Assembly (NCBI RefSeq): GCF_038594945.1
Contig: NZ_JBCFYD010000001.1
Location: 1,488,001-1,552,000 of the forward strand
Length of the DNA: 64,000 bases
Direction of reading: 5' to 3'
From: Fodinibius sp. Rm-B-1B1-1
GTDB lineage: Bacteria > Bacteroidota > Rhodothermia > Balneolales > Balneolaceae
Positions 25,337 through 32,303 of this stretch are shown here, in pieces. Under the pieces are notes generated by a model. It was not told the origin of the DNA. It did not search any database and saw only the letters and a program-made list of their open reading frames with translations. How positions within the stretch are numbered: position 1 is the stretch's first letter; each line of letters starts with the position of its first letter. The position numbers and the translations under genes were made by a program.

Positions 25337-27748
25337 TTATGAGAGCGATTTTGCAGTTTTTAGGATGTCACTCAGTACTCCCGCTGCGGTAACCTCTTTG
25401 CCAGCACCCGGACCTTGAATGACCAGAGGCGTATCATTATAGAAATCCGAAAATATCTGGATGATATTATCGGTGCCTTGTAGTTGTCCCAATGGAGAAT
25501 CTTTAGGGACCGATTCAATGCCAATTTTAATTTTCCTATCCTGCAGTTTGCCGGTATATCGCAGTGTTCTGTTTTGTTCTTTAGCTGAATCAATACGCTG
25601 CTTCCAGGTACTGTCATAACTCGGCAATTTTTCTAAAAAGGTTTCCTTGTCGACATTTGTTAGTTCCTGCGGAATGAGTGATTCTACTTCCAGCTCCTCG
25701 CGTTCTATGGTGATACCCAGGGTTCGTGCCAGTGTTAAAAATTTGCGGGCTACATCTTCGCCGGATAAATCATCACGTGGATCGGGTTCGGCGTAGCCTT
25801 TTTCGCGGGCATCCACGATAGCTTTACTGAAAGGAGTGCCTTGTTCCAGCTGGTTAAAAAGATATGTCATGGTTCCTGAAACAACTCCCGATATTTCAGT
25901 GATGTCATCTCCCACAGAATGTAGATCTTTAATGGTTGAAATAACGGGGAGTCCCGCTCCAACGGTGGTTTCGTATCTGAAGGAGCTGTTTTGTTTTTGG
26001 ATCAATGATTGTAGTTCATCGAAAAATGATTGTTCGAAGGTATTAGCTAACTTGCTGGGTGTTACGACATGGATACCATTGGCAAACAGCTTGGGATATA
26101 GTTGGGCAACATCTTTACTGCCGGTAGCATCTACGAAAATTAAATTGGGATTAGTGGCATCTGTTAGCTTATCTATTAATGCATCCCAATTCGTTTGATC
26201 AGATTTTTCCCAGCATAATGGTTGTTGTAACTTTATTCCCGAATCATCCCACAGTGTTTGGCGGCTGTTGCAGGTGCCCAGTAGGCGAAATTGAAATTCA
26301 TTCGTGGTTATATTTTTGAGTTGGTCGAGCAGCGTTTTTCCTACAGCACCGGTGCCCGCTACAAAAAGGTCAACCGTGGGCTGTTTTTGGGAGGTCAGGT
26401 TGTTGATAAGGGCCGCGGCTTTGCGAGCATCATCCTCAGAAAACAAAAACGAGATAAACCGTTCGTCATAATTTCGCTCAGTGTGTAAGGGGCGAATTTT
26501 ATGCTCAGCAAGTAACGAAACAATACGGGCAGAAAGTTGTTCATTCTTGTTAAACTGATTGCTGAACTTTTTCACCTTATAAAGGTTGTCGGTAAGGTTG
26601 AAAATGGTGTTACGATTGGACGCCCAGGCAGCTAACTGTTCTTTTATTTTCTCAAAAAATGATTGTTTTAAAAGAAAACGTGCAGCTTCGAAATCAGACT
26701 CCTGCGTAAAGCCAATGGGTTTGGCATCGGGATAGTTTTCACCCCAGCTGTTGAGCTTGGTAAATAACTCTACTGCATGTTTTTGATCAATTTGTAGCCG
26801 TACAAAGGGACCGGTGATGGTGATAGTTTTTAAGGATCCGTTTGTGTTATAATCTGATGTGATAAGTGTACCAGGGTGTTGAGGATTGTAGCTATTTTTA
26901 ACTAACACAGTAGTATCTTGTTTTTGAATGGGGTTAATGGTTTTGGGATGAATGACGTTGGCTCCGTGAGCAGAAAGTTCAGAGATATCCCCGAAGCTGA
27001 GCTGTTCAATCGACTCGGTGTTGTCAACCCAGCGGGGATCAGCCGACAAGACGCCGTCGACGTCGGTCCATATCTCGAGGTGGTCGGCATGTAGTGCATC
27101 GGCAACGAGTCCGGCCGTGTAATCAGAACCGGATCGGCCCAGCGTGGTAATATTCTGCTTTTCATCAGAGCCAATAAAGCCGGTTATCACCGGAATGGCT
27201 TTTTGTTGCAGGATAAATTCACGAATAAGTTTTCTGCTTAAACTGCGATCAACATTGGCCTGACCGAAGGTAGAATCAGTTTTAATAAAGTGATGTGCTT
27301 CATACGACTGAGCCTGATATCCTTTTTCAGAAAGTGCGGCCGAAAAAATAAGGGCAGAGGCTCGTTCCCCAATCGATAAAATTTGGTCTTTCCACGCCCG
27401 GTAGTTTTTGGTTTTGAGTTCATGATTATTCAGGGTTGTTCGAAGTTCAATGAACAGGTCTTGCAGGTACCCACGGCTGGGATGGCTCATAGATACCAAA
27501 CTGTCAAACAGTTGACGGTGGCGACGTTCAAGTTTATTTAATGTTCGATACATATAGCTGTTGTCATCGCGGTAGTTCTCAGCTATTTCGATAAGCGTAT
27601 TTGTAACACCGCCAATAGCTGAAACAACCACAACGGGATTTGCTTCGTCCAATCTATTAGCAACGATTTTTACCGATTGTTGAATGAGAGCGGTATTTTT
27701 TAGAGATGAACCGCCAAATTTTAGGATATGTGTTTCTGCCTGTGACAT
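25337..27748 (-). CDS. Bifunctional aspartokinase-homoserine dehydrogenase
   Basis: It catalyses the first and third steps from aspartate to homoserine. The 803 residues contain an N-terminal aspartokinase domain with KFGGSSL (10-16) and TTLGRSGSDYTA (201-212), a regulatory region with ACT-like character (about 305-450), and a homoserine dehydrogenase domain beginning with the Rossmann motif VAGTGAVGKTLL (from 463) and including the catalytic-region sequence ETTVGAGLPVISTI and PDPRDDLSGEDVARK. It resembles ThrA/MetL of enterobacteria. Genomic position, 2 bp downstream of metX under a SAM riboswitch, argues for a methionine-dedicated (MetL-like) role, but threonine inhibition cannot be excluded from sequence. 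Confidence 0.93.
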   Translation of the reverse strand: MSQAETHILKFGGSSLKNTALIQQSVKIVANRLDEANPVVVVSAIGGVTNTLIEIAENYRDDNSYMYRTLNKLERRHRQLFDSLVSMSHPSRGYLQDLFIELRTTLNNHELKTKNYRAWKDQILSIGERASALIFSAALSEKGYQAQSYEAHHFIKTDSTFGQANVDRSLSRKLIREFILQQKAIPVITGFIGSDEKQNITTLGRSGSDYTAGLVADALHADHLEIWTDVDGVLSADPRWVDNTESIEQLSFGDISELSAHGANVIHPKTINPIQKQDTTVLVKNSYNPQHPGTLITSDYNTNGSLKTITITGPFVRLQIDQKHAVELFTKLNSWGENYPDAKPIGFTQESDFEAARFLLKQSFFEKIKEQLAAWASNRNTIFNLTDNLYKVKKFSNQFNKNEQLSARIVSLLAEHKIRPLHTERNYDERFISFLFSEDDARKAAALINNLTSQKQPTVDLFVAGTGAVGKTLLDQLKNITTNEFQFRLLGTCNSRQTLWDDSGIKLQQPLCWEKSDQTNWDALIDKLTDATNPNLIFVDATGSKDVAQLYPKLFANGIHVVTPSKLANTFEQSFFDELQSLIQKQNSSFRYETTVGAGLPVISTIKDLHSVGDDITEISGVVSGTMTYLFNQLEQGTPFSKAIVDAREKGYAEPDPRDDLSGEDVARKFLTLARTLGITIEREELEVESLIPQELTNVDKETFLEKLPSYDSTWKQRIDSAKEQNRTLRYTGKLQDRKIKIGIESVPKDSPLGQLQGTDNIIQIFSDFYNDTPLVIQGPGAGKEVTAAGVLSDILKTAKSLS

Positions 27749-27750
27749 TG

Positions 27751-28797
27751 TTATGAAACTGCTTGTTCAGATCGTTCTGATTGTAATGATTTTATGATCG
27801 GATTCAGTTGATCAAATTCGATTAAAAAGGCATCGTGGCCGTGTGGAGACGATATTTCCTCGTAACGACCGTTGGGTAAAAGCTCTGCCAGCTCGCGGCA
27901 TTCGCCAGGGGGATAAAGCATATCACTGTTGATACCAACAACTTTTACAGGGATGGTGAGTCCGGCCAGTGTTTCTCCGATTCGCGGTCGACTTCGTTTG
28001 ATGTCATGAGAATCCATAGCTTGGGTAAGCCGCACATATGAAACCGCATCAAAGCGGTCTACGAGCTTTTCGCCTTGGTAGTTGAGATACGATTCTACTT
28101 CGTATTGTGATTGCCCGTCTTGGAGCCTGCGGCCAAACTTTTTGTCAAAATCAGAGGGATGGCGGTAGCTGTTCATCGCAATCATACGTGCCAGTGCCAA
28201 TCCGTCTTTTGGGGGCTGTTCTTTGGAATAGAAACCATCCTCCCAGTTGGGATCGTTGTAAATGGCCTGTCGTTGAGTATGGCTAATGCCAATGGCCCAG
28301 GGGCGATGTTTTTCCCCCATCCCAATAAGTACGGCCGATTGCGGACGCTCATCCATGATGCACCACTCCAGTGCTTGCATGCCGCCCATGGATCCTCCAA
28401 TTACCAGTTCTATCGCATTAATATCGAGTTTATCCAATAGTTTTTGCTGTAGGCGAACAATATCACGGATCGTGACCTTAGGGAAATCAGCACGGTATGG
28501 TTTATTGGTTTCGGGATTGATGGATGTCGGCCCGCTGGTGCCGTAACAACTGCCAAGTACATTGGGGCAGATGATAAAATGTTTGTTGGGATCAAGGGTC
28601 TTGTTTTGGCCAAATGTTCCACCAAACCATTCATCAACGGAGGTGTTGCCGGTCAAAGCGTGGCAAACCAAAATGACATTATCTTTTGTATCATTTAAGG
28701 TCCCCCACGTTTGATACGCAATGGTTGGTTCGGGAATCGTAGCTCCGCCCTCCGTAACAAAAGGCTGATCAAAAGTATGTGATTGTTTGTTGCTCAT
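27751..28797 (-). CDS. metX: Homoserine O-acyltransferase MetX
   Basis: It activates homoserine by acylation, most likely with acetyl-CoA, for direct sulfhydrylation. The 348-residue alpha/beta hydrolase has IAYQTWGTLN near the start, the oxyanion region CHALTGNTSVDEWFGG, the nucleophile elbow VIGGSMGGMQALEW, and Asp and His of the triad in GINSDMLYPP and SPHGHDAFL. Acetyl versus succinyl specificity depends on a few residues that I cannot assign with certainty here, though pairing with metY fits O-acetylhomoserine. It lies 63 bp after metY and 2 bp before the aspartokinase gene. Confidence 0.94.
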   Translation of the reverse strand: MSNKQSHTFDQPFVTEGGATIPEPTIAYQTWGTLNDTKDNVILVCHALTGNTSVDEWFGGTFGQNKTLDPNKHFIICPNVLGSCYGTSGPTSINPETNKPYRADFPKVTIRDIVRLQQKLLDKLDINAIELVIGGSMGGMQALEWCIMDERPQSAVLIGMGEKHRPWAIGISHTQRQAIYNDPNWEDGFYSKEQPPKDGLALARMIAMNSYRHPSDFDKKFGRRLQDGQSQYEVESYLNYQGEKLVDRFDAVSYVRLTQAMDSHDIKRSRPRIGETLAGLTIPVKVVGINSDMLYPPGECRELAELLPNGRYEEISSPHGHDAFLIEFDQLNPIIKSLQSERSEQAVS

Positions 28798-28860: not shown

Positions 28861-30210
<1,350 letters not shown>

Positions 30211-30708
30211 TTAGTTGTTATTGGTTGATTCCTTTTTGGGTCGAATTAAAAACTGGTGATCGACTTTGATACATCGGTTTTCGTAAATTTCAATTCCTGT
30301 TCCTTGTACCTTTTTTATTTCATCGGTTTGTTCTCCTGTACCAAGCTGCAGCCAGATTGCTCTTGGCTTAGGATCTATTACCAGGGCCTGATCAACGGCT
30401 TTATGGATATGAGCAGGTGGTAGAAATACATCCACGATATCAATGGGATGAGGAATGCTTTTCAAATCCGGATAGGCTTTTTTGCCTAAGATTTTATCCG
30501 CATTGGGGTTTACGGGTACGATGTTGTAGCCGGCATTTTGCAGATAGCGAGCTACAAACTGACTATCCTTGTGAAAACTGCGTGAGAGACCAACTATGGC
30601 AATGGTCGAGATAGTATTGAGTGTTTTCTCAGCGCGGTTTGTTTCTGCTTCGAGCGCTTCGGTCGCCCGCATCTTTTTGTCGTACCAGCTGTTAAAAGTA
30701 GATTTCAT
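30211..30708 (-). CDS. CoA-binding domain protein (CoA_binding_2, YccU-like)
   Basis: The 165-residue protein has a single Rossmann-like CoA-binding domain: TIAIVGLSRSFHKDSQFVARYL, YNIVPVNPN, GKKAYPDLKSIPHPIDIVDVF, and ENRCIKVDHQFL. This small family is widespread but its biochemical role is not established. The ATG at 30708 is chosen because an upstream in-frame TTG lies inside the riboswitch terminator stem. It is the first gene after the SAM-I riboswitch and lies 18 bp before metY, so it is probably connected with methionine or sulfur metabolism. That link is inferred from context only. Confidence 0.85.
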   Translation of the reverse strand: MKSTFNSWYDKKMRATEALEAETNRAEKTLNTISTIAIVGLSRSFHKDSQFVARYLQNAGYNIVPVNPNADKILGKKAYPDLKSIPHPIDIVDVFLPPAHIHKAVDQALVIDPKPRAIWLQLGTGEQTDEIKKVQGTGIEIYENRCIKVDHQFLIRPKKESTNNN

Positions 30709-30745: not shown

Positions 30746-30800
30746 AAAAAAGCCCCTTCCAAGATCTTGCGCCGCGTAGGGGGCAGATCTAAGAAGAGGC
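30746..30800 (-). terminator. Expression-platform terminator of the SAM-I riboswitch
   Basis: On the minus strand a 16-position stem (plus-strand 30785-30800 with 30752-30767; one mismatch and two G-U pairs) with a 17-nt loop is followed by six U residues (30746-30751). It lies 34 nt after the aptamer and 38 nt before the first gene, as expected for an OFF-type SAM switch. Confidence 0.8.
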
Positions 30801-30833
30801 TTGATATCTACTTTGCTAAAAGTATGGCCTGTT

Positions 30834-30947
30834 CTCTCATCTTTCCCCGTAATACGGAGCAGGAAGTGGCACCTTTCCGTGCATAAAAATGCAGGATGGT
30901 TGCCAAAGCGTCTTCGGGCCTGATCCCTCAGCTTTTCTGGATAAGAG
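30834..30947 (-). promoter_or_regulatory. SAM-I riboswitch (S-box) upstream of the met operon
   Basis: On the minus strand the conserved core appears in order: CTCTTATCCAGA, GCTGAGGGATCAGGCCC, GGCAACC, AAGGTGCCACTTCCTGC, and closing GGAAAGATGAGAG. The first and last segments form P1. These are the S-box hallmarks of the aptamer that binds S-adenosylmethionine and promotes termination when SAM is abundant. It controls the CoA-binding protein, metY, metX and aspartokinase-homoserine dehydrogenase genes. Confidence 0.95.
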
Positions 30948-30983
30948 TGCTCACTAAATCAAAAGAACAATCGTACAATAACT

Positions 30984-31016
30984 AAAAAAGCCCTTCGGGA
31001 TCGACCGAAGGGCTTT
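30984..31016 (-). terminator. Attenuator terminator between the leader ORF and the SAM riboswitch
   Basis: On the minus strand AAAGCCCTTCGG and CCGAAGGGCTTT form a perfect 12-bp stem with a 6-nt loop, followed by six U residues (30984-30989). It lies between a short Cys/Met-rich ORF and the riboswitch, with no gene in front other than that ORF. The 5' arm can instead pair with the last codons of the ORF (31049-31056). Confidence 0.9.
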
Positions 31017-31022
31017 GAATCT

Positions 31023-31040
31023 GTTTTACAAGTGTAAAAC
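31023..31040 (-). other. Leader stem-loop between the ORF stop and the attenuator terminator
   Basis: GTTTTACA (31023-31030) and TGTAAAAC (31033-31040) form an 8-bp palindrome with a 2-nt centre. In RNA the tight loop would open by a pair or two. It would bring the ORF end and the terminator 5' arm next to each other in the antiterminated state. It could also be a protein-binding palindrome. Confidence 0.5.
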
Positions 31041-31043
31041 GAA

Positions 31044-31121
31044 TCAGTCCTTCGGTTGCAGGTGCGACATAAGCATACACATGCAACAGAGGCGATAAAA
31101 ATATGTGTTAATTCGTTTCAT
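31044..31121 (-). CDS. Cys/Met-rich leader peptide of the met operon (25 aa)
   Basis: A short ORF of 25 codons starts at the ATG at 31121 and ends with TGA at 31044. It begins MKRINTYFYRL and continues CCMCMLM, then SHLQPKD. Codons 12-18 are TGT TGC ATG TGT ATG CTT ATG: six of seven are Cys or Met, the two sulfur amino acids. The codons CCG AAG G just before the stop are complementary to the 5' arm of the terminator that follows. This is how leader peptides of amino-acid biosynthetic operons look, and the operon downstream makes methionine. No strong Shine-Dalgarno site is seen, which is common in this phylum. I know of no named family for this peptide; its function is inferred. Confidence 0.7.
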   Translation of the reverse strand: MKRINTYFYRLCCMCMLMSHLQPKD

Positions 31122-31194
31122 GACTTGAGCTGTTTTGAATTTCAATTCTAACATAAGTGATTGTTTTAAATCAAACAAGTATTAAATGTGTGGG

Positions 31195-31229: not shown

Positions 31230-32303
31230 TTAATCAATACTAAAGCTCATGTTAAAATGGACGCCATCGTCAGAACGGAAGGAGTATTCTGCCCCCAATT
31301 GGTTACATAGCGATTCAATAAGCTTGAGCCCCAGGGATGTTGTGTTTGAAATATCCAAACCGTCGGGAAGGCCTTTCCCATTATCACTAACTGCAACATA
31401 AAATTGATCGTCTTTCTTGTAGCAGGAGATAGAGATCGTGCCACCTTCATCTTCAAAAGCGTGCTTATTGGCATTAGTGATAAGTTCATTTAAAATTAAT
31501 CCTAATGGAACGGCTTGCCTGGTATTGAGCGAAACAGGATCAAGGTTCAAGTCGAAGGAGATATTTGAGTTTCCGTTCAGAGTCTCCATTGATTCGCTAA
31601 GCTGATCTACAAGGTCGTGGATATAGCTTTCCAGCTTAATGCTTGCCAAGCCATCTGTTTGGTAAAGCTTTTGGTGAATGGAGGCAATGGACTGTACGCG
31701 ATTCATACTTTCAGAGAGTACATTCGTTACTTCCTGCGAATCGGTCTTCATTATTTGCAGCTCGAGCAGGCCGGTAATAGTAGCCAAATTATTTTTAATG
31801 CGGTGGTGGGTTTCCTTAATCAGTGTTTCGCGTTCTTCTATTATCTCCTTCATTTTTTGTTTCCGCTTCCAGTCTTTGGTAAGATCATTTTGTACGGATA
31901 CATAGTGGGTTACTTCTCCCTCTTCGTTGTAAATGGGATCAATGCTCCATCGAACACGATAGGGTGTACCATCCTTTTTATAATTGAAGGTTTCTCCTTC
32001 GAATCGTTCATTGACATTAAGCTTATGAATAAGCTTCTCAATAACTTGGCGATCCGTTTTAGGCCCTTGCAAAAGAGACGGGGTTTTGCCCATAACTTCA
32101 TCTCTTGAATACTGGGTAATACGTTCGAATGCTTTGTTTACAAAGATAATTTGTTCGTTGCCAATTTTTTCCGGAGCATCTGTTATGACAACCATCTCAC
32201 TGGTTGTTTCGATAGCTTTGAGTAAGATATCTGAAATCTTTCCATTGGAGTTTTTGTCACCCACAACATTTTCCTGGAGTTTATCTATGGCCTGTTTTTT
32301 CAT
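31230..32303 (-). CDS. PAS-domain sensor histidine kinase (HisKA_2 type)
   Basis: The 357-residue protein has an N-terminal PAS domain (about 27-145), a coiled linker, a HisKA_2 dimerisation segment with phospho-acceptor H166 in ETHHRIKNNLATITGLLELQ (read as ETHHRIKNNL plus ATITGLL), and a HATPase_c domain with the N box LNELITNANKHAF and G boxes DNGKGLPDG and SLGLKLIESL. No transmembrane segment or response regulator is adjacent, so it is a soluble orphan kinase. The PAS domain has a LOV-like segment GKTPSLLQGPKTD (72-84), but the flavin-binding Cys position is a Pro. A start at the ATG at 32303 is supported by AAGGGAAT upstream. Confidence 0.88.
   Translation of the reverse strand: MKKQAIDKLQENVVGDKNSNGKISDILLKAIETTSEMVVITDAPEKIGNEQIIFVNKAFERITQYSRDEVMGKTPSLLQGPKTDRQVIEKLIHKLNVNERFEGETFNYKKDGTPYRVRWSIDPIYNEEGEVTHYVSVQNDLTKDWKRKQKMKEIIEERETLIKETHHRIKNNLATITGLLELQIMKTDSQEVTNVLSESMNRVQSIASIHQKLYQTDGLASIKLESYIHDLVDQLSESMETLNGNSNISFDLNLDPVSLNTRQAVPLGLILNELITNANKHAFEDEGGTISISCYKKDDQFYVAVSDNGKGLPDGLDISNTTSLGLKLIESLCNQLGAEYSFRSDDGVHFNMSFSID

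Follow-up and report, generated by a model that had tools for sequence, protein, structure and literature searches.

The locus studied here raises the question of why a short open reading frame (ORF) rich in Cys and Met codons, followed by a predicted intrinsic terminator, should precede a SAM-I riboswitch and the methionine genes behind it. It lies on the minus strand of Fodinibius sp. Rm-B-1B1-1, a member of the Balneolaceae (Balneolota), and was analyzed in a window of 64,000 nucleotides, this being the whole stretch of DNA considered and the frame of all coordinates given below. Ribosome-mediated transcription attenuators of the trp, his and leu type are composed of a leader ORF, an antiterminator that is masked and an intrinsic terminator. 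The ilvB1 leader of M. tuberculosis is described as a case of this class (PMC13236596). Judging from the sequence, we consider it very probable that the locus carries a trp-type Cys/Met attenuator of this kind, placed in series with the SAM-I riboswitch.

The leader ORF (31044-31121) has 25 codons, opening with ATG, and encodes MKRINTYFYRLCCMCMLMSHLQPKD before its TGA stop codon. Codons 12-18 (31068-31088), the candidate regulatory codons, are TGT TGC ATG TGT ATG CTT ATG and read Cys Cys Met Cys Met Leu Met (CCMCMLM), six of the seven being Cys or Met. Near the end of the ORF lies the putative antiterminator segment ACCGAAGG (31049-31056), whose alternative partner is the 5' arm of a predicted intrinsic terminator (terminator 1, 30984-31016), a 12-bp stem formed by AAAGCCCTTCGG/CCGAAGGGCTTT at 31016-30987 with six U finishing at 30984. 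The ORF with its six Cys/Met codons and the complementarity of ACCGAAGG to the arm of a 12-bp, U6 terminator before the riboswitch had been described in the earlier note, and both were confirmed on the sequence, together with their coordinates. Further downstream, a boxA-like word GTTCTTT (30962-30968) precedes the SAM-I aptamer (30834-30947; RF00162, 84.2 bits against a gathering score of 44.4, E 2e-18), which is the one SAM-I match in the whole genome. An Rfam scan of the window at the gathering score returned only SAM and one tRNA, and no T-box. The aptamer is followed by intrinsic terminator 2 (30746-30802), with an 11-bp outer stem and a U-run in its fold, which would be the expression platform of the riboswitch.

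The first gene past the riboswitch (30211-30708) encodes a CoA_binding_2 protein (Pfam PF13380, E 1.7e-32). It is followed by metY (28861-30192), of the O-acetylhomoserine sulfhydrylase family (TIGR01326, 681 bits for a cut-off of 495; PF01053), metX (27751-28797), encoding homoserine O-acetyltransferase (NF001209, 391 bits for a cut-off of 331, with a TIGR01392 score under the cut-off of that model), and a gene for a fused aspartokinase-homoserine dehydrogenase (25337-27748; PF00696, PF00742 and PF03447). These four genes would form one operon. On the other side, a predicted -35 box TTGTTT (31173-31178), read from the sequence 17 nt before a predicted -10 box TATGTT (31150-31155), would place the transcription start near 31143 and give the leader ORF a 5' UTR of about 22 nt, a length counted from this predicted promoter only. 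In a promoter scan, TTGTAT or TTGTAA at a 17-nt spacing from TATGTT was picked at a similar distance in 6/12 genomes of the genus, and a site other than TTGTTT-17-TATGTT was chosen in Fodinibius sp. Rm-B-1B1-1 itself. Upstream on the same strand is a PAS/HisKA_2 sensor kinase gene (31230-32303), separated from the leader ORF by 108 nt; by eye, the sequence upstream of the leader differs in several relatives from the genus.

In the proposed first stage, a shortage of charged Cys- or Met-tRNA would cause the ribosome to stall on codons 12-18; ACCGAAGG would then remain accessible and capture the 5' arm of terminator 1, allowing RNA polymerase to read through. With plentiful charging of both amino acids, the ribosome would instead reach the stop codon and cover ACCGAAGG, terminator 1 would form and transcription would stop. 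The second stage would be the SAM-I riboswitch with its own terminator, and the downstream genes would be expressed only if low Cys/Met charging coincides with low SAM. Translation of the ORF, stalling, termination and the tRNA that dominates the response are what we infer here; the elements, their conservation, their spacing, the co-change of the pairing strands and the link with metY are seen in the sequence. The earlier note had read the locus as antitermination governed by ribosome position, and conservation, spacing and pairing support this reading.

Within the genus (Fodinibius/Aliifodinibius), the ORF, the terminator and the alternative pairing are kept in 12/12 sampled genomes, with one mismatch in the terminator stem of genome G151. 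CCGRAGG at the ORF end and CCTTCGG in the terminator are likewise present in all 12. Eight of the 12 leader peptides read L-C-C-M-C/H-M, and the remaining four have diverged and are still Cys/Met-rich (e.g. WMCIIRLCM). The conservation proposed as a check in the earlier note, that of the ORF, the Cys/Met codons, the terminator and the alternative pairing, is therefore found in the related genomes. Moreover, the Cys/Met leader ORF is far from chance. In 3600 dinucleotide shuffles of 60 loci (240 nt each), only 24 contained an ORF of 15-29 codons holding at least four Cys/Met in eight residues, and at least six in eight were found in 0/3600 shuffles versus 44/60 real ORFs, these last having been picked from 330 nt. 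The order and number of the Cys/Met residues differ among genera, as illustrated by CCMCMLM, MCCMYMC, CICIMCMCCC and SCMMLC. The genome was also searched for another occurrence of the CCMC codon word, giving two matches, one of them the leader itself; the other, in which neither a leader nor a terminator could be seen by eye, was discarded. A control pattern gave three matches.

To place the leader in its wider context, SAM-I was searched for in the phylum, with matches in 313/394 genomes, and in relatives, with matches in 89/97. Of 104 own-order matches listed, 89 were fetched, corresponding to 70 metY loci, 18 metH loci and one weaker metY relative; the survey thus covers these and not the other 15 or further matches from the own family. 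The downstream labels are tblastn matches to the metY of the window and to the first gene of locus L070, a piece of one third of the model length that matches NCBIfam methionine synthase models below their full-length cut-offs. With an ORF of up to 40 codons holding at least four Cys/Met in eight residues as the criterion, a leader was found at 62/70 SAM-I/metY loci of the order versus 0/18 SAM-I/metH loci (Fisher p = 6.5e-13). A 19th metH locus of the own family (L023), tallied among the outsiders and not in the 18, also has no Cys/Met ORF. In an earlier ORF scan, the 26/86 loci giving no qualifying ORF were the 18 metH loci, four loci from one small-genome genus (g11, 1.9-2.6 Mb), L057, L121, L032 and L059. 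Eight metY loci lack a Cys/Met ORF in the survey, four of them being those of g11, and at L032 and L059, which fail the criterion, ORFs with three Cys can be seen by eye. The g11 loci (L071, L088, L104 and L110) have SAM-I and GTTCTTT before metY; no leader ORF was found in them and no terminator by eye, and the leader was apparently lost in this genus. The 20 best-matching named loci, several of which overlap the surveyed genomes, all have SAM-I, and each also has a leader ORF in which four or more of eight residues are Cys/Met. A U-tract terminator lies between the ORF and the genes at 58/60 own-order loci with a leader ORF.

In these sequences, the putative attenuator accompanies the metY operon, which fixes sulfide. 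The metabolic sense of this could be that MetY draws on sulfide in competition with cysteine synthesis and MetH does not, which, if true, offers a reason for a leader before metY and not before metH.

The pairing between the ORF end and the terminator was examined in the 58 own-order loci with both elements (51 terminators found by script and 7 by hand); L116 and L119, without a U-tract terminator, do not enter the pairing, spacing and folding sets. In the Fodinibius locus, the 8-bp complement of ACCGAAGG to the terminator arm has p = 0.006 in 500 shuffles. Every locus (58/58) has, from -11 to +14 nt from its stop codon, a stretch able to form 6-10 bp with the 5' arm of the terminator; when compared with shuffles, this reaches p <= 0.05 in 46 loci and p <= 0.01 in 16. 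Also in 46/58, the own terminator arm pairs better than the median arm of the other groups. For these values, the register was picked for maximal pairing, the shuffles being given equal freedom, and related genomes are not independent. The antiterminator and terminator strands change together, as in CCGRAGG/CCTTCGG, CGGAGGG/CCCTCCG and AGGGCTTT/AAAGTCCT, and the pairs can be quite different (CAGAGGG/CCCTCTG, AGGGTTC/GAACCCT and GGAGAGCCT/AGGCTCTCT).

The genus alignment (A1) shows 96.8% pairing for the antiterminator helix; the outermost position is A-U in four genomes, U-A in four, unpaired in three, where it fails, and a gap in one. A second helix (helix a) joins the start of the ORF (TGAAACGAATTA, 31109-31120) to the stop codon and the next bases (TGATTCGTTTTA, 31035-31046); it is 91.7% paired, with 3/12 pairs changed on both sides. 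For these two helices, the cells paired, the cells changed on both sides and the covariation score exceed those of 500/500 shuffles and of all slid registers, and the pairs changed on both sides together with the number of pair types are matched by 71/500 shuffles. Helix a reaches p <= 0.05 in 15/58 loci, 11 of which belong to the genus (11/12), versus 4/46 outside it. In sister group C, the antiterminator helix on a MAFFT alignment shows no excess over column shuffles (417/500 as high). A second group C alignment of 12 rows, made with L053 left out, shows the terminator arm one base out of register in some rows, and the failure is probably due to such misregistered rows. As to covariation, which the earlier note had suggested examining, the pairing changes together in several lineages, but the group C count failed.

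The 8-bp stem-loop that the earlier note had placed between the two elements fared less well. Its arms, GTTTTACA and TGTAAAAC, do exist, but at 8 bp they leave a 2-nt loop, and therefore about 7 bp is realistic. As the key middle element, this hairpin was set aside, helix a being better supported in the genus and the left arm GTTTTACA being better supported as a partner of the ORF start. A candidate protector strand, GTTGCA inside the Cys codons (31082-31087), could pair with 31055-31060; this helix is weak in Fodinibius sp. Rm-B-1B1-1 (p = 0.19) and reaches p <= 0.05 in 14/58 loci taken singly. In group C, 5/7 of its pairs are changed on both sides, a value matched by 9/500 shuffles.

The position of the codons relative to the antiterminator is what would be required if the ribosome covers this segment at the stop codon and frees it when stalled. 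In Fodinibius sp. Rm-B-1B1-1, the first bases of the six Cys/Met codons lie 14-32 nt ahead of the antiterminator. Among the 58 loci, 386/411 Cys/Met codons from codon 6 onward lie at least 13 nt upstream of it, and every locus (58/58) has at least three such codons 13-37 nt upstream. The center of the Cys/Met run holds its distance best to the antiterminator (standard deviation of 4.8 nt, versus 8.4 nt to the stop codon, 7.2 nt to the start codon and 7.5 nt to the terminator), and the position of the antiterminator relative to the stop codon floats among loci.

Nascent-RNA folding of the same loci, with the ribosome modeled as a 28-nt mask, gives a mean antiterminator probability of 0.44 for the naked RNA and 0.89 when the ribosome is stalled at the first Cys/Met codon. 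Placing it at codon 3 is already enough to lift the mean to 0.60. With the ribosome at the stop codon, the mean is 0.00, a value built in by the imposed mask. The stalled state exceeds the naked state in 54/58 loci (p = 3e-10). For the Fodinibius locus, the antiterminator probability of the naked nascent RNA is already 0.96 and the protector helix is weak; therefore, the state without translation may differ from that of trp. The full-length minimum-energy fold, by contrast, contains the terminator along with the start helix and the hairpin of the Cys codons (z -5.1).

The word GTTCTTT is found less than 50 nt before the SAM-I aptamer in 94/122 loci, for 0.009 expected per 50 nt, and GTTCTT less than 40 nt before SAM-I in 65/70 metY versus 1/18 metH loci of the order. 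In Fodinibius sp. Rm-B-1B1-1, GTTCTTT also occurs in the 16S leader (CGTTCTTTGACAG, about 145 nt before 16S), and it precedes 16S in 5/6 rRNA operons of three relatives, being missing from the one operon of the third. This word is a candidate boxA, the NusB/S10 antitermination site. In family f2 (L116, L119, L121 and L049), the stop codon of the Cys/Met ORF lies 7-8 nt before GTTCTTT. By eye, these ORFs sit in a long hairpin in which the ORF start pairs with its end, and no U-tract terminator was found in the four leaders (two by script and two by eye). In this family, attenuation could possibly occur by the ribosome covering boxA at the stop codon.

In sister genera g2-g7 and g9 (e.g. L075, L081 and L103), the loop of terminator 1 pairs over 9-12 bp with the SAM-I side. 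The partner runs 3-4 nt into the 5' strand of SAM-I P1 in 20/20 loci, each with p <= 0.0075, and compensatory changes are seen (AAC/GTT, AAT/ATT, AAA/TTT and TGAT/ATCA). On a MAFFT alignment of group B, this helix is 95.5% paired (0/500 shuffles); 1/9 pairs is changed on both sides, which 451/500 shuffles match, and one pair covaries (U-A in 8, C-G in 6). The pairing reaches p <= 0.05 in just 2/12 loci of the genus of the window, 0/14 of group C and 1/12 of group D. If true, it would join the attenuator physically to the riboswitch. A tentative extension, which we hold as possible although doubtful, is that Cys/Met charging, SAM and boxA/Nus factors act on one transcript as an integrated sulfur-allocation gate with interacting stages, which would operate at the step where sulfide enters methionine.

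The same observations bear on three other explanations of the locus. The kinase gene upstream, on the same strand and ending 108 nt before the ORF, invites the reading that the hairpin is simply its terminator and the short ORF a chance frame. We regard this as exceedingly improbable, because the leader is kept while the upstream sequence varies by eye among genomes of the genus, the Cys/Met run is far above the shuffles, the leader follows metY and not metH (62/70 versus 0/18), and it is conserved across genera and in named genomes. That the ORF shields the leader from Rho, with a constitutive terminator 1 and read-through set by boxA/Nus factors, would account for the GTTCTT before SAM-I in 65 of the 70 metY loci of the order and for the four f2 leaders that end 7-8 nt before GTTCTTT without a U-tract terminator. 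However, it explains neither the presence of Cys/Met codons nor their spacing from the antiterminator, nor the co-change of the antiterminator itself, and we find it very unlikely.

An arrest peptide is a further candidate, in which the Cys/Met-rich product would bind a sulfur compound or a metal, copper for instance, and the ribosome arrest caused by this ligand would switch the terminator. Runs of Cys and Met could bind soft metals, and the same RNA geometry would serve arrest as well as stalling. Nonetheless, the order and number of Cys/Met vary among genera and Met alone occurs in two Ignavibacteriota, as expected for codons and not for a binding motif, and the genes behind the leader make methionine; this explanation is in our opinion unlikely.

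Beyond the order, the leader is mostly absent. Among the loci counted there, 60/64 SAM-I/metY loci have no leader, and of the four with a leader match, one (L021) looks like chance. In 60 further loci, L169, L171 and L173 show the layout, each with metY downstream. The layout alone was also seen at L274 and L293 among 24 additional new loci. SAM-I is present in 8/20 other named loci scanned, and the leader is found at three of the eight, L204 from the Balneolaceae and L222 and L232 from the Ignavibacteria, and not at L238, L242, L244, L247 and L260. L222 and L232 present a leader reading MKNKNLNIEIKNMAMCL..CMMC.., a terminator, GTTCTT and SAM-I, and then metY. On the other hand, Stygiobacter electus (L245, Ignavibacteriota) and a Melioribacteraceae genome (L254) carry Met-run leaders (FMMWMM and HIMMINMMM, respectively) and a terminator directly before metY, with no SAM-I match at the gathering score. 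Because of these two loci, the leader-peptide attenuator seems able to stand alone.

When compared with known systems, the Fodinibius leader resembles trp, his and leu attenuators in having an ORF with regulatory codons, an antiterminator that would be masked at the stop codon, an intrinsic terminator and biosynthetic genes downstream, but it differs from them in mixing Cys and Met codons, in preceding SAM-I and in the weakness of its protector helix. Polycysteine leaderless ORFs of mycobacteria are reportedly attenuators based on Cys codons. The uORFC-8-2 motif before cysS in Rhodobacterales is likewise described as a Cys-codon attenuator (PMC8632094). Both depart from the present case in using Cys codons instead of a mixture and in preceding other genes, and SAM-I is not reported in the text accessible for them. 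MetL of Campylobacter jejuni, a leader peptide with Met codons on a short terminated RNA before metBA (PMC3847290) that shows a peak in start-site profiling (PMC11955535), shares the Met-codon leader before methionine genes. In contrast, it has three Met codons, belongs to another phylum and, in the accessible part of these sources, comes with no reported SAM riboswitch; its orthologues are given there only for C. jejuni, C. coli and C. doylei (PMC3847290). The metL of Streptomyces lividans before metNIQ (...RCMCRRMCAF; PMC8079986) does mix Cys and Met in one leader peptide, but it is leaderless, serves a transporter operon and, according to the paper, has no typical Rho-independent terminator, and its accessible text mentions no riboswitch in series (PMC8079986).

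Tandems of SAM-I with a Met T-box (PMC9481103) and T-box SAM pairs in Bacillota (PMC12452182) are also known, and by inference they would be similar in logic, expression needing uncharged tRNA and low SAM. These tandems use a tRNA-binding RNA, whereas the amino acid sensor of Fodinibius would be a translated leader peptide; in the text accessible from these sources, the terms "leader peptide" and "uORF" are absent from the tandem review (PMC9481103) and "leader peptide" from the other (PMC12452182). Also, a Xanthomonas SAM-I riboswitch binds uncharged tRNA-fMet (PMC7270179), bringing Met-charging and SAM signals onto one met operon, although through a single RNA with mainly translational control, according to the part available, and not through two predicted terminators in series. 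A leader-peptide attenuator in series with SAM-I was not found among the papers listed in open-license full text. The earlier note knew of no described met/cys attenuator of this design in the phylum; Met or Cys leader peptides had in fact been proposed in other phyla, and SAM-I/T-box tandems are known, but the combination with SAM-I and the host group look new. If true, Balneolota and some Ignavibacteriota would have arrived at the T-box/SAM-I logic of other bacteria by way of other components, which suggests that these phyla, themselves little studied, control sulfide use by reading cysteine and methionine charging. The natural leader variants would be material for tests of translation-transcription coupling in the Bacteroidota/Chlorobiota group.

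Finally, some features of the leader ORFs vary by lineage. In group C (e.g. L084, L085 and L107), only 6-8 nt separate a predicted -10 box from the start codon of the leader in 12/14 loci, and because of this the ORF is probably read from a leaderless or nearly leaderless mRNA. In the nine Ignavibacteriota-like leaders, with L274 and L293 counted from an inner start codon, codon 7 is Asn in 9/9 and codon 8 is Ile in eight and Thr in one. Also, in 51/58 loci the leader ORF has ATA at precisely nt 20-22 despite varying residues, and in Fodinibius sp. Rm-B-1B1-1 it is displaced by 2 nt, to nt 18-20 (31102-31104).
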